64,000 nucleotides of DNA from Verrucomicrobia bacterium S94 (GCA_004299845.1 CP036201.1:496001-560000); one strand, 5' to 3'; shown: positions 3,554 to 8,155, counted from the stretch's first letter. A program made the numbers and translations. The notes: generated by a model not told the origin, from the letters alone.

Positions 3554-3633
3554 TCCATTGCGTATTTGCTACGGTCTTTATTGCTGTTATGATTTGAGAT
3601 CACTTTGATGATTTGATTTAAGCGGAGAAAAAT

Positions 3634-3984
3634 ATGGCGCAGAAACTGGGAGATACCACCTGGGTAAACGAACTTATTCCGGATCTTGAGGTACGGAAAA
3701 ACCAGTTTGTTGTTGATACAGATGAGGTGGATGATGAACTGATCGAAGTTTTTGTCGATGAACTGCATCGCCTTTCCAATGAACTGAAGGAGGGGCTGTC
3801 TTCGGAAAATGCCGAAATGGTCCGTATTGCGGCGCACTCCATTAAAGGTATGGGCGGTACGATCGGTCTGCCTGAGATTTCCGTGCTGGGGCTGGAAGTT
3901 GAAAACTGTGCAAAGGAAGAACGCCTCTCTGATGCGCGCCGGCTGGTGACGGCGCTCGGGGATTGGATGAAAACGCTGGATTAA
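3634..3984 (+). CDS. Hpt domain phosphotransfer protein
   Basis: A 116-residue stand-alone histidine phosphotransfer domain. The motif AAHSIKGMGGTIGL (about residues 67-80) holds the phospho-accepting histidine and the lysine-glycine stretch typical of Hpt. A Shine-Dalgarno-like GCGGAG lies just upstream of the ATG. Hpt proteins relay phosphate between receiver domains. The gene directly downstream, six bases away, starts with a receiver domain and is the obvious partner. No cognate hybrid histidine kinase is visible in the cluster, so the phosphate donor must be encoded elsewhere. Confidence 0.9.
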   Translation: MAQKLGDTTWVNELIPDLEVRKNQFVVDTDEVDDELIEVFVDELHRLSNELKEGLSSENAEMVRIAAHSIKGMGGTIGLPEISVLGLEVENCAKEERLSDARRLVTALGDWMKTLD

Positions 3985-3990
3985 CGCCGA

Positions 3991-5634
3991 ATGATTTCAT
4001 CATCTCAGGATAATATGCAGAATTTGCCCTCTTCCCGGCTGGCTCAGAAGTTGTCCGGCCGGGTACTTGTTGTGGATGATGAACTGCCGAACAGGCTCTA
4101 CCTCAGGAAACTGCTTGAAACCAGAGGGTGTGAGGTTTTTGATGTCGATGAGGGACCGGCTGCGCTTAATATTGCCATCCGGCAGGCACCGGACCTTATT
4201 CTGGTCGATGTGATTATGCCTGGAATGGATGGTTTTGAACTCTGCGATCTTTTGCGGAAGGAACCCCGTACCTCCCATATCCCGGTTATCATGGTGACGG
4301 CGAAGTCGAAGATTGAAGACATTGAAACGGGATTTGAACTCGGTGCGATGGATTATATCCGGAAACCCTTTAATCCCCGTGAGCTGGTTCTGCGGGTCGG
4401 CAATGCGCTGGCGCTGAAAAAAAGTAATGATGAGATTACGATCTGGAATAAGCGCGTTTCGCGCGATCTTTCTCTGGCGGGGGCCATCCAGCGGTCGCTC
4501 TTTTCCGATATTCCGCATTTTTCTCAGCGGTTTGAAGTCCGGATTGCTTATGAACCCTGCATGGATGTCGGGGGTGACGCGTTTGATATCATATCGCTTC
4601 CGAACGGAAAGCATGCGGTTTATGTGGCGGATGTGTCCGGGCACGGCGTGGCACCGGCTATGATTTCTTCGCTGTTGAAAGCCACGGCCAGCGAAATGAT
4701 TCATCGGTATGCTGACCGGGGACCTGCGGAGGTGTGTAATGCTCTGAATATGATGTTCCGGCGGCGGATTGATAATCCCTCCTATTTTGCAACTCTGTTT
4801 ATGGCCATTCATGATGCGGAGACGCTGGAGTGGCGGTGTATGAACTGCGGTCATCCGAATCCGGTGCTGATTCGCGACGGTGAATATATCAGTCTTGGTC
4901 GTGAAGGCGATGGCGGGGGGGCTCCGGTGGGTTTTCCTTTCGGGCCGGAACGTCCGTATACGGAAGACGATGAGGTGATCATTAAAGACGAGGGAAACTC
5001 CTTTCTGCTTCTTTACACCGACGGTCTTATGGAAGCGCGCCACCGCGAGAGCGGCGAGGAGTGCGGCGATTTCATGAAGAAGACTTATCAGAAAGTGGTC
5101 TCTCAGCCGGAACATCCCAATAAAGCAGTACGTCTGCTGCGTGAACTGGAGGGGTATGATTTCGATATTGCGGCTGACGACTGTACGGCCATATCGATCC
5201 ACATGCTTGATCCGCGGCGCATTGTGCTTGAGCAGACTGTGCCGCGAAATATTCATCTGGTATCTGAGGTTGCCCGCCAGTCTGAAGCCGCGGTGACCTC
5301 GGTCGGTATTTCGGTGAATACAGCGGCCATGCTGCGGTTGCTGGTGATGGAACTTGGTGCGAACCTGGTGGACCATAGCGGGCTGGATGAAGATGATTCG
5401 TTCTGGCTGCAGATCCGGGTGGATGGAAAAACCTGTCAGGTGGTACTGCGTGACGAGGGCGCGGAGTGGGATCTGGAAGAAGCGCTGAACCGGAAACTCG
5501 ATGATTCCTACATGGGCGAGCGCGGGCGCGGACTGGCTATTACCAATACGATTACCGACCGGATTGAACGTTATCGGGTTCAGACACAGAATCTGACCTA
5601 TTGTACCATTGTTGACGAGGAACGCGATTCATAA
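3991..5634 (+). CDS. Receiver domain + SpoIIE/RsbU-type PP2C phosphatase + RsbW-like kinase domain
   Basis: A 547-residue three-domain regulator. Residues 25-140 are a CheY-like receiver (VLVVDDE, phospho-Asp in LILVDVIMPGMDG, Lys in IRKPFNP). Residues about 160-400 are a PP2C/SpoIIE phosphatase (PCMDVGGDAFD, VADVSGHGVAPA, LLYTDGLMEA). Residues about 430-540 are a GHKL ATPase of the RsbW type (MELGANLVDHSG, RDEGAEWD, GRGLAITNT). Phosphatase and anti-sigma-type kinase in one chain suggest both activities act on the STAS protein encoded downstream at 6384. The stop overlaps the next start by one base, indicating one operon with the Hpt gene and the sugar transferase. Confidence 0.93.
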   Translation: MISSSQDNMQNLPSSRLAQKLSGRVLVVDDELPNRLYLRKLLETRGCEVFDVDEGPAALNIAIRQAPDLILVDVIMPGMDGFELCDLLRKEPRTSHIPVIMVTAKSKIEDIETGFELGAMDYIRKPFNPRELVLRVGNALALKKSNDEITIWNKRVSRDLSLAGAIQRSLFSDIPHFSQRFEVRIAYEPCMDVGGDAFDIISLPNGKHAVYVADVSGHGVAPAMISSLLKATASEMIHRYADRGPAEVCNALNMMFRRRIDNPSYFATLFMAIHDAETLEWRCMNCGHPNPVLIRDGEYISLGREGDGGGAPVGFPFGPERPYTEDDEVIIKDEGNSFLLLYTDGLMEARHRESGEECGDFMKKTYQKVVSQPEHPNKAVRLLRELEGYDFDIAADDCTAISIHMLDPRRIVLEQTVPRNIHLVSEVARQSEAAVTSVGISVNTAAMLRLLVMELGANLVDHSGLDEDDSFWLQIRVDGKTCQVVLRDEGAEWDLEEALNRKLDDSYMGERGRGLAITNTITDRIERYRVQTQNLTYCTIVDEERDS

Positions 5635-6368
5635 TGGAACGTCCTGTATACAGAGCCCGGCGGGAGTTGTTTGATCGGATGGAAATTCCGATCACAAAGG
5701 CTGATGCACATATTCTCAAGTTTAAGCAGCGTTCGCGCCTGCTGGTCTGGGAAGGGATGCTTCGCAGTCTGCTGGTGGTAAAGCGGACGATGGATATTCT
5801 GGGTAGTACTGTGGCGATTCTTGTTCTGCTGCCCGTTTTTTTTCTGGTGGCGCTCTGTATTCTGATGGAGGACGGCTTCCCGGTGATTTATGTGCAGAAA
5901 CGCGTGGGGTTGAATGGACGTGAATTCCGGTTCTATAAATTCCGTACCATGGTCCGCAATGCCGATGCATTGCGCGCGGAGCTGGAAGAGCAGAATGAAC
6001 TGAGCGGAAGAGTTACATTTAAAATGAAAAACGATCCACGTGTATTGAAAGTCGGGCGCTTCCTCAGACGTTCGAGCATAGATGAAATTCCTCAGTTTTT
6101 CAATGTGCTCATCGGGGACCTTTCTCTGGTTGGGCCTCGTCCGCCGTTGCCGGAGGAAGTGCGGAAGTATACACTGTCGGAACGGAAGCGGCTGCATGTT
6201 AAACCCGGGCTGACGTGTCTGTGGCAGATCGGCGGGCGGGCGGATGTTCCGTTTCATGAACAGGTCGGCCTGGATATGCAGTATATACAGAGTCAGAGTT
6301 TCTTTAAAGATATGATAATCATGTTGAAAACGATTCCCGCTGTATTATTCGGTCGCGGGGCATATTAG
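5634..6368 (+). CDS. Bacterial sugar transferase (undecaprenyl-phosphate sugar-1-phosphate transferase, WbaP/ExoY type)
   Basis: A 244-residue membrane enzyme expected to move a sugar-1-phosphate onto undecaprenyl phosphate and so start a surface polysaccharide repeat. The hallmarks are complete: KRTMDILGS leading into a hydrophobic segment, FPVIYVQKRVGLNGREF, FYKFRTM, RRSSIDEIPQFFNVLIGDLS, LVGPRPPLP and PGLTCLWQI. It is the short form, with about 80 soluble residues before the membrane segment. Its ATG overlaps the upstream stop by one base. Placement between a PP2C/kinase regulator and a STAS protein suggests signalling control of polysaccharide initiation. Confidence 0.95.
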   Translation: MERPVYRARRELFDRMEIPITKADAHILKFKQRSRLLVWEGMLRSLLVVKRTMDILGSTVAILVLLPVFFLVALCILMEDGFPVIYVQKRVGLNGREFRFYKFRTMVRNADALRAELEEQNELSGRVTFKMKNDPRVLKVGRFLRRSSIDEIPQFFNVLIGDLSLVGPRPPLPEEVRKYTLSERKRLHVKPGLTCLWQIGGRADVPFHEQVGLDMQYIQSQSFFKDMIIMLKTIPAVLFGRGAY

Positions 6369-6383
6369 GGAGGTACTTGCGTT

Positions 6384-6725
6384 ATGTTGGTGAATTGCGA
6401 GAAACAGAATGAAATAGGAGTCGTGCGGGTCAGTAAAGCCCTCACGGCGGCGACGGTCGATGCCTTCCGCGATCAGTTTAATCATTGGTCTTCGGCGGAG
6501 ACCGATGTGAAAAACTATGTTATCGATCTGGCCGAAGTGGATTTTATGGATTCCGCCGGACTCGGTACACTGATTGCCGTATTGAAGCGGGTTACTGAAC
6601 AGGGCGGGGATATGAAAATCGCCAATCTGCAGAAGAAGCCGCGTATGGTTTTTGAAATAACACGGGCGTATAAGGTGTTTGAAATTTATGAGTCCGTCGA
6701 AGATGCTATCAAAGGTTTCGAGTAG
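6384..6725 (+). CDS. STAS domain anti-sigma-factor antagonist-like protein
   Basis: A 113-residue stand-alone STAS domain of the SpoIIAA/RsbV type. The conserved strand-helix YVIDLAEVDFMDSAGLGTLIAV (about residues 47-68) contains the serine (DSAGLG) that partner kinases phosphorylate and PP2C enzymes dephosphorylate in this family. GGGAGG lies 12 bases upstream of the ATG. The natural partner is the PP2C/kinase fusion two genes upstream. No sigma factor is present in the cluster, so the STAS output could act on a neighbouring sugar-transfer protein rather than on transcription. Confidence 0.93.
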   Translation: MLVNCEKQNEIGVVRVSKALTAATVDAFRDQFNHWSSAETDVKNYVIDLAEVDFMDSAGLGTLIAVLKRVTEQGGDMKIANLQKKPRMVFEITRAYKVFEIYESVEDAIKGFE

Positions 6726-6736
6726 AGTGCTGACCG

Positions 6737-8155
6737 ATGATCGCCGTAATCAACACCTCCATCCCATGCACATGGGCAGGGGATATCAGCGAAAAGCCGT
6801 GGGCGTTGCTTCCCATTGCGAACCGGCCGCTGATTGATTACTGGCTGGAAGCCTGCACAGAACAGAATATCCGGTCGGTTCATATTGTTCTGCATGATGG
6901 TGCGGAAGAGGTGGAGCGCTTTGTGGGGTCCGGCTCCCGCTGGAATGTGGTCGTTGAATATGTTTTTGCGCGAAGCACCGAGACGCCGGTCGATTATCTT
7001 CGTTCGATTTCCGGATACTGGAAAAACGGACTGCTCTATTTCGGCGGGCCGTTTTTTATGCGCCGGCGGCAGGCGTTCACTCCGGAGCATTTCAGCCGGT
7101 TGCCGGCCTGCTGTCATGGGCCGGGCGATCCGCCGGTTTTTCTCTATGGTCGGGATGAACACGATGTGAACCTGCTGCTGGACGGCGGTTCCCCGCCCGG
7201 CCGCGGGCTTGAGGAGGTGCATGTTCATCCTTATATTATTGAAACAATCGAGGATTATTTCGATATCAATATGAAACTGGTTGCGGGGGAGTTCACGCGC
7301 TACGTCACGGCCGGATTCGCTACGCCCGATAAATCCTCCGTGGGGTTTAATGTCCGGACGCCCCCGTCGAGTTACCTGCGTGCGCCGATCATTGTCGGCG
7401 ATGACTGTCGTTTCGGGGCGATGACCACCATTGGTCCCAAAGCACTTGTGGCGAATCATGTCATCGTGGATGCATTCAGCGAGCTTTCCAACTGCCTTGT
7501 GCTGGAAGATACGTATATCGGACGGAATCTTGAAATCCGCAATAAAATTGTGGCGGGCAACCGGGTGATTGATCCGAGAGACGGAACGTGTATTCAAATT
7601 GATGATTCGTGGTTGATTGCGCGGAACCGGCCCGAGCTGCTGACCGAAGATGTGGTACGGCTCACTGTGCTTTGGGGAGTGGCGCTTGTGCTGGCAACAT
7701 TGCAGTTGATTCCGTTTCTGGTGTTGTATCCTCTGATCAGGCTGACCGGGATTGCCGGTTTCAAGAAACAGCAGTTTCATGATCCGCACACCGGATATAT
7801 CGCTCTCCCGGTTTTCGGCAAAAAAGCCAACCGAAAGTCGATGCTTTACCGTGTTTTCCGGGCGCTGTCGCTCGACCGCTTCCCGCTGATTCTGCTGGTT
7901 TTGCGCGGGCGCATGTTTCTGAGCGGACAGCCGCCGCTGCGGCATCCGAAGGATGATGAAGTTGTGAAGCAGCTTCGTCGCTATTATCCCGGGGTCTTCT
8001 GCTACCGTGATTATAATCTTGATTCCGACCTGCTCACGGATGCGCTTTGGTATGCACACATCCGTTCGTTGTATGAGGATCTTAAAATTCTGGTGAAAGC
8101 GCTCGTCAGTCGTTTCCTTACAGCTGGTCGTCAAATTCCGGCGGATACCGAGTGA
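6737..8155 (+). CDS. Nucleotidyltransferase-like/left-handed beta-helix protein fused to a sugar-transferase-like tail
   Basis: A 472-residue protein with two recognisable parts. Residues 1-280 resemble NDP-sugar pyrophosphorylases: a GT-A-like fold (EKPWALLPIANRPLIDYWLEA, LLYFGGPFFMR), then hexapeptide-type turns (APIIVGDDCRFGAMTTIG to LEDTYIGRNLEI). The glycine-rich nucleotide loop expected near residue 12 is missing, so catalysis is doubtful. From about residue 305 there is a hydrophobic segment, then a region mirroring the C-terminal half of the nearby sugar transferase (LSLDRFPLILLVLRG, LSGQPPL, YYPGVFCYRD). The catalytic DEIP and GPRP elements are lost. Stop and recJ start overlap by four bases. 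It may be a regulatory or scaffold relative of a sugar transferase. Confidence 0.8.
   Translation: MIAVINTSIPCTWAGDISEKPWALLPIANRPLIDYWLEACTEQNIRSVHIVLHDGAEEVERFVGSGSRWNVVVEYVFARSTETPVDYLRSISGYWKNGLLYFGGPFFMRRRQAFTPEHFSRLPACCHGPGDPPVFLYGRDEHDVNLLLDGGSPPGRGLEEVHVHPYIIETIEDYFDINMKLVAGEFTRYVTAGFATPDKSSVGFNVRTPPSSYLRAPIIVGDDCRFGAMTTIGPKALVANHVIVDAFSELSNCLVLEDTYIGRNLEIRNKIVAGNRVIDPRDGTCIQIDDSWLIARNRPELLTEDVVRLTVLWGVALVLATLQLIPFLVLYPLIRLTGIAGFKKQQFHDPHTGYIALPVFGKKANRKSMLYRVFRALSLDRFPLILLVLRGRMFLSGQPPLRHPKDDEVVKQLRRYYPGVFCYRDYNLDSDLLTDALWYAHIRSLYEDLKILVKALVSRFLTAGRQIPADTE

Follow-up and report, generated by a model that had tools for sequence, protein, structure and literature searches.

The closest described relatives of the switch considered here are the HptB-HsbR-HsbA system of Pseudomonas aeruginosa and the CrsR-CrsA system of Shewanella, in which a phosphotransfer protein (Hpt) signals to a single REC-PP2C-kinase chain and, through it, to a serine of a single-domain STAS protein (PMC6482189). 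These systems are known to act on FlgM/FliA, on RpoS and on the cyclase HsbD, and the literature consulted describes no phosphoglycosyl transferase (PGT) or pseudo-nucleotidyltransferase-PGT partner for them. The same front half was found in a block of five genes at positions 3634-8155 of a 64,000-nucleotide stretch from Verrucomicrobia bacterium S94 (the window, i.e. bases 496001-560000 of the 4.1 Mb single-contig genome), together with a small PGT and a fusion protein that appears, by its sequence, to be a conserved pseudoenzyme. The five genes are a conserved module across many Verrucomicrobiota and a few Planctomycetota. On balance, we favour the interpretation that they form a signalling-to-glycan module, in which the STAS switch would act via the pseudoenzyme on the PGT. 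What is new is probably this PGT/pseudoenzyme output of a known switch, together with an undescribed pseudoenzyme family.

Links between such signalling and polysaccharide are on record. In Vibrio fischeri, the dual kinase/phosphatase SypE and the STAS protein SypA control the symbiosis polysaccharide, apparently through a non-sigma target (PMC8256260, PMC4517449); SypE-SypA sits in the 18-gene syp locus, and the literature consulted describes no pseudoenzyme partner for it. In Myxococcus xanthus, the single-domain receiver EpsW, when phosphorylated, activates the initiating PGT EpsZ post-translationally, apparently through direct contact (PMC12802240). That system has a large PGT, EpsZ, and no pseudoenzyme, whereas the present block encodes a STAS partner switch, a small PGT (244 amino acids, aa) and no single-domain receiver. 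The HmpU/V/W hormogonium system of Nostoc is a partner switch of a non-canonical kind with ties to both motility and polysaccharide (PMC8256260); its gene set is different, and its description includes no PGT or pseudoenzyme. No report of a STAS protein combined with a PGT was found in the open-licence literature.

The block contains the following features (window positions):

3634-3984, + strand: Hpt phosphotransfer protein, 116 aa, H68 in AAHSIKGMGG (Pfam Hpt, E 6.8e-12)
3991-5634, + strand: REC-PP2C(SpoIIE)-HATPase_c_2 single-chain switch protein, 547 aa (Pfam Response_reg, SpoIIE and HATPase_c_2)
about 4063-4398, about 4603-5202 and about 5257-5592, + strand: REC, PP2C and SpoIIAB-like kinase domains of the switch protein, respectively
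5634-6368, + strand: small monotopic PGT, 244 aa (Pfam Bac_transf, 3.8e-65)
6081-6086, + strand: Asp150-Glu151 dyad of the PGT
6384-6725, + strand: STAS protein, 113 aa (Pfam STAS, 1e-22; TIGR00377 above cut-off)
6552-6554, + strand: predicted phospho-Ser57 of the STAS protein
6737-8155, + strand: putative pseudoenzyme fusion, 472 aa (Pfam Hexapep, partial Bac_transf and sub-threshold NTP_transferase)
about 6737-7306, about 7319-7636 and about 7646-8119: nucleotidyltransferase-like part, left-handed beta-helix (LbH), and re-entrant helix with PGT-like part of the fusion, respectively
7874-7879, + strand: D380-R381 of the fusion, in place of the Asp-Glu dyad

All five genes lie on the + strand where the sequence-only reading had placed them, and their domains were recovered with Pfam. 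The intergenic gaps are +6, -1, +15 and +11 nt and the pseudoenzyme gene overlaps recJ by 4 nt, so the five genes look like one transcript. The catalytic and phospho-acceptor residues of the switch proteins are intact: the phospho-acceptor His of Hpt is invariant in 19/19 homologues, the receiver Asp, the PP2C metal Asps and the kinase N and G boxes are conserved in the alignment of the switch protein, and the DS of STAS Ser57 is invariant in 37/37 homologues. The Hpt protein, the REC-PP2C-HATPase chain and the single-domain STAS protein are thus encoded together as in the HptB-HsbR-HsbA type, the likeness being one of shared architecture. Because this front half matches HsbR and CrsR, the single-chain phosphatase-kinase is not new; phosphatase and kinase had been taken to be usually separate, but these single chains were already known (PMC6482189).

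For assessment of linkage, the fusion protein was searched against 289 genomes of the phylum and the surroundings of the best matches were fetched. Members of the same genus and of other families of the class retain the gene order Hpt - REC-PP2C-kinase - PGT - STAS - fusion, and the flanking secDF, cation efflux and recJ genes are common to the genus only. In a separate scan of named genome contigs, the PGT and STAS genes adjoin the fusion in 33/33 scorable loci (those with enough upstream sequence); the alignment used was narrow and reaches mostly closer relatives, and these loci are not independent, because they were found via the fusion and many come from close relatives or from the same genomes as the first survey. 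Where the locus reaches far enough upstream, a REC-PP2C-HATPase gene is present in 26/26 cases and Hpt in 22/26. Other classes carry the trio rearranged, as STAS-PGT-fusion, or as PGT-fusion with STAS and PP2C-kinase genes several kb off. As a within-genome control, all Bac_transf and STAS matches were listed in 12 genomes: every cassette PGT (13/13) has a same-strand STAS gene at ≤2 kb, 12 of them at ≤60 nt, versus 0/24 other PGTs with a STAS gene within 5 kb; on this control, chance neighbourhood was rejected. Near-full-length fusions are rare in Planctomycetota (3/294 genomes), and all three fusion-bearing genomes have PGT, STAS and PP2C/kinase-like genes within about 7 kb. The linkage that the sequence-only reading had proposed to check holds in several families and, with the genes rearranged, in a second phylum.

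The PGT has the composition of the small monotopic type, i.e. a Bac_transf domain with the dyad and a Pro-Arg-Pro motif and without an N-terminal four-helix bundle. Its length is 244 aa in nearly all homologues, the Asp-Glu dyad and Pro-Arg-Pro are invariant in 39/39, and it matches the WbaP and PglC structures. In the homologues of the fusion, the Glu of the dyad is gone (R, K, L or C instead), Pro-Arg-Pro is lost, and the nucleotide-binding signature GGxGTR...PK is absent from the N-terminus in those aligned; Trp22, near the P-K position, is invariant in the closer homologue set. In the deep alignment, the columns without variation hold mostly Gly, Pro, Val, Leu, Asp and Tyr; none is a histidine. 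The AlphaFold2 model of the fusion (pLDDT 78.7, pTM 0.62) is low in the LbH part and leaves the relative domain positions uncertain. Structural neighbours, scored with VIA-align, were nucleotidyltransferase-LbH proteins for model residues 1-290 (tlr0611: Z 14.9, rmsd 4.8, 279 aligned; eIF2B epsilon and GMPPA/GMPPB: Z about 12-13) and the PGT domain of WbaP for residues 298-461 (8t53: Z 12.7, rmsd 3.3, 155 aligned), so that the PGT fold is present in the model.

These residues suggest a conserved pseudoenzyme with a nucleotidyltransferase, an LbH and a PGT fold, in which neither enzyme-like part retains its catalytic motifs; this replaces the earlier description of a sugar-transferase-like fusion. 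A second active transferase was rejected, as the catalytic dyad is lost. The fusion might instead be a working enzyme of altered chemistry, sugar-modifying or acyl-transferring on a lipid-linked sugar, with the switch genes as ordinary co-transcribed pathway regulators; 33/40 homologues retain Asp380 of the PGT-like domain, and LbH domains are found in acyl- and acetyltransferases (Hexapep match). We consider this improbable, given that the aligned homologues lack GGxGTR as well as the Glu and Pro-Arg-Pro of a PGT, that no histidine is invariant and that a kinase-fused paralogue (below) likewise lacks the dyad. The pseudoenzyme has partial parallels in eIF2B gamma/epsilon and GMPPA, which are inactive regulatory or assembly subunits. 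They share the nucleotidyltransferase and LbH fold and are structural neighbours of the model but, unlike the pseudoenzyme, have no PGT-like membrane domain and no link to STAS switches.

A paralogue of the pseudoenzyme, located outside the window, carries its own kinase domain. The relevant features of the S94 genome (G000) and of its congener G228 are:

G000:C1:490935-492869 (= L039:10935-12869), - strand: paralogue protein, 644 aa, about 3 kb upstream of the window start
L039:10576-10938: second STAS gene, next after the paralogue
L134:6038-7465, + strand: sulfatase gene just 5' of the paralogous exopolysaccharide operon of G228

The paralogue consists of a degenerate nucleotidyltransferase, an LbH and a degenerate PGT, which also lacks the Asp-Glu dyad, followed by HATPase_c_2 (E 6.5e-16), an RsbW/SpoIIAB-like kinase whose N and G boxes look intact. 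No PGT lies beside it in S94, and an intact one is present in G228, where the order is sulfatase - intact PGT - fused protein - STAS - SLBB/Wza - unknown - Wzz - Wzx - GT4. The PGT/pseudoenzyme/STAS trio, with the kinase moved onto the pseudoenzyme, heads an exopolysaccharide operon in this congener. This arrangement is the strongest single reason for placing the probable action of the switch at the pseudoenzyme. The Wza and Wzz genes that come after the G228 cassette, and the binding of phosphorylated HsbA to the diguanylate cyclase HsbD (PMC5085249), which means that a STAS protein can partner a non-sigma enzyme, would also fit a switch that bypasses the initiating step and targets another non-sigma effector, for example a diguanylate cyclase or the machinery for chain length and export. 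That alternative is very unlikely in our estimate: the conserved core is PGT, pseudoenzyme and STAS, with Wza and Wzz outside it, and the five-gene block contains no diguanylate cyclase gene by gene calls and Pfam.

Beside the second STAS gene, on the opposite strand, L039:10222-10455 (+) gives a STAS match (E 1.6e-7) with an internal TGA and is perhaps a decayed copy.

The module belongs to polysaccharide synthesis. In many relatives (L054, L056, L058, L059, L060 and L068) it is flanked by glycosyltransferases, a WecG-type transferase, Wzz, or O-antigen ligase/polymerase-type genes. The S94 genome has one Wza-type locus at C1:123 kb and another, which includes Wzz, at C1:2162 kb; neither contains a Bac_transf gene, and the only two intact Bac_transf genes of the genome are the cassette PGT and a large one at C1:1.89 Mb.

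In the proposed mechanism, the relay would start from a hybrid histidine kinase, whose gene lies elsewhere in the S94 genome but beside the module in some relatives (L050 has it fused to Hpt, L054 adjacent to Hpt). This kinase would pass phosphate to Hpt, and Hpt-phosphate would pass it to the receiver of the REC-PP2C-kinase protein. The state of the receiver would decide whether that protein phosphorylates or dephosphorylates Ser57 of STAS. In one phospho-state, STAS would leave the kinase and bind the pseudoenzyme, which would be located at the membrane with the active PGT; through this docking, the first and committed step of exopolysaccharide synthesis, in which sugar-1-phosphate is transferred to undecaprenyl phosphate, would be switched on or off. 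The module STAS proteins share a conserved helix, FEITRAYK(V/I)F, that may serve as the docking surface. Precedents for such control are the activation of EpsZ by phosphorylated EpsW, the binding of phosphorylated HsbA to HsbD and the SypA-controlled polysaccharide. We hold it quite possible, a little short of an even call, that the direct output of the STAS switch is this committed step and not transcription, exerted via a dedicated three-domain pseudoenzyme that would gate the active small PGT and has the kinase built into it in one paralogue. A phosphorelay and partner switch on polysaccharide initiation had already been suggested by the sequence-only reading, and the linkage, the exopolysaccharide clusters and the natural kinase-pseudoenzyme fusion agree with it; two points of that reading, the single chain as something unusual and the fusion as sugar-transferase-like, needed correction.

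Several observations weigh against a gate of this kind. The linkage alone could come from co-expression, and no STAS gene was seen near the PGT and pseudoenzyme in the distant relatives L073, L074 and L077. In S94 itself, the module lies outside any export cluster. Small PGTs are described as functional monomers (PMC12802240), and a partner-based gate would therefore be unusual.

Co-expression is also at the centre of the classical partner-switch explanation, in which the STAS protein and kinase would control a distant sigma or anti-sigma factor (e.g. FliA/FlgM, as HsbA does, or RpoD) that drives polysaccharide genes, the PGT and pseudoenzyme being merely co-expressed. No sigma or anti-sigma gene was seen in the five-gene block, so the earlier statement that no sigma factor is present holds locally; it does not hold for the genome, which encodes an RpoD-like sigma factor and a FliA/WhiG-family sigma factor (the latter above its cut-off), and a sigma or anti-sigma target elsewhere is conceivable for that reason. 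The FlgM/FliA and RpoS targets of HsbR-HsbA and CrsR-CrsA (PMC6482189) and the match of the STAS protein to the anti-sigma antagonist superfamily (TIGR00377) point in the same direction. Nevertheless, we rate transcriptional control as unlikely, if the most serious of the alternatives: no SigB/F/G-family match (TIGR02980) over the cut-off was obtained in the S94 genome, the linked genes are a PGT and a pseudoenzyme, the paralogue has its kinase domain fused to the pseudoenzyme, and the co-linkage spans two phyla.

Upstream of the Hpt gene, a weak candidate sigma-70-type promoter was noted:

3566-3593, + strand: candidate promoter, 5' of the Hpt gene (1 consensus match versus 0.4 expected by chance, which is not taken to imply function)

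Other switch-like genes occur in the S94 genome. An orphan STAS paralogue at L145:7589-7927 (-; G000:C1, about 2.369 Mb) has the related motif VFEIIRAHRHFEI and scores 88 bits to the cassette STAS, with no HATPase_c_2 match listed next to it. At G000:C1:3098592-3100321 (-), two genes for SpoIIE-type phosphatases lie side by side. An HATPase_c_2 match at L086 was rejected as a stand-alone RsbW, because it falls in a pair of histidine kinase-like genes that has a response regulator next to it.

Variants of the cassette were also recorded. At L137:5028-8084 (+), a 1019-aa GAF/PAS-PP2C-HATPase_c_2 protein, a sensor version of the switch, is encoded directly 5' of a PGT - pseudoenzyme - STAS trio. 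At L078:9833-10531 (+), the same parts are wired differently: a STAS-receiver fusion adjoins the PGT and pseudoenzyme, and upstream of them lies a PAS/GAF hybrid kinase that includes Hpt. The Planctomycete locus L221:8609-12110 (-) has two PGT-like genes beside the pseudoenzyme, one of which (388 aa) matches the PGT profile only partly. The cassette at L176, in which no Hpt gene was detected, lies on a contig labelled Desulfonatronospira sp. MAG and may result from faulty binning or from transfer beyond the PVC (Planctomycetes-Verrucomicrobia-Chlamydiae) group. A plasmid search with the REC-PP2C-kinase protein returned generic SpoIIE/receiver matches only.

For the STAS-only proteins SypA, HmpV and RbaV, the direct target is not known (PMC8256260). 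The tight linkage of a STAS gene to those of an initiating PGT and a pseudoenzyme points to a definite candidate target for proteins of this kind, and four or five proteins, some of them from named Pontiella strains, are enough to test the question. If true, the proposed mechanism would add to EpsW-EpsZ a second way for phosphosignalling to control polysaccharide assembly at its first step, and a protein family that is present in many Verrucomicrobiota and apparently uncharacterised would gain a likely role in regulation.

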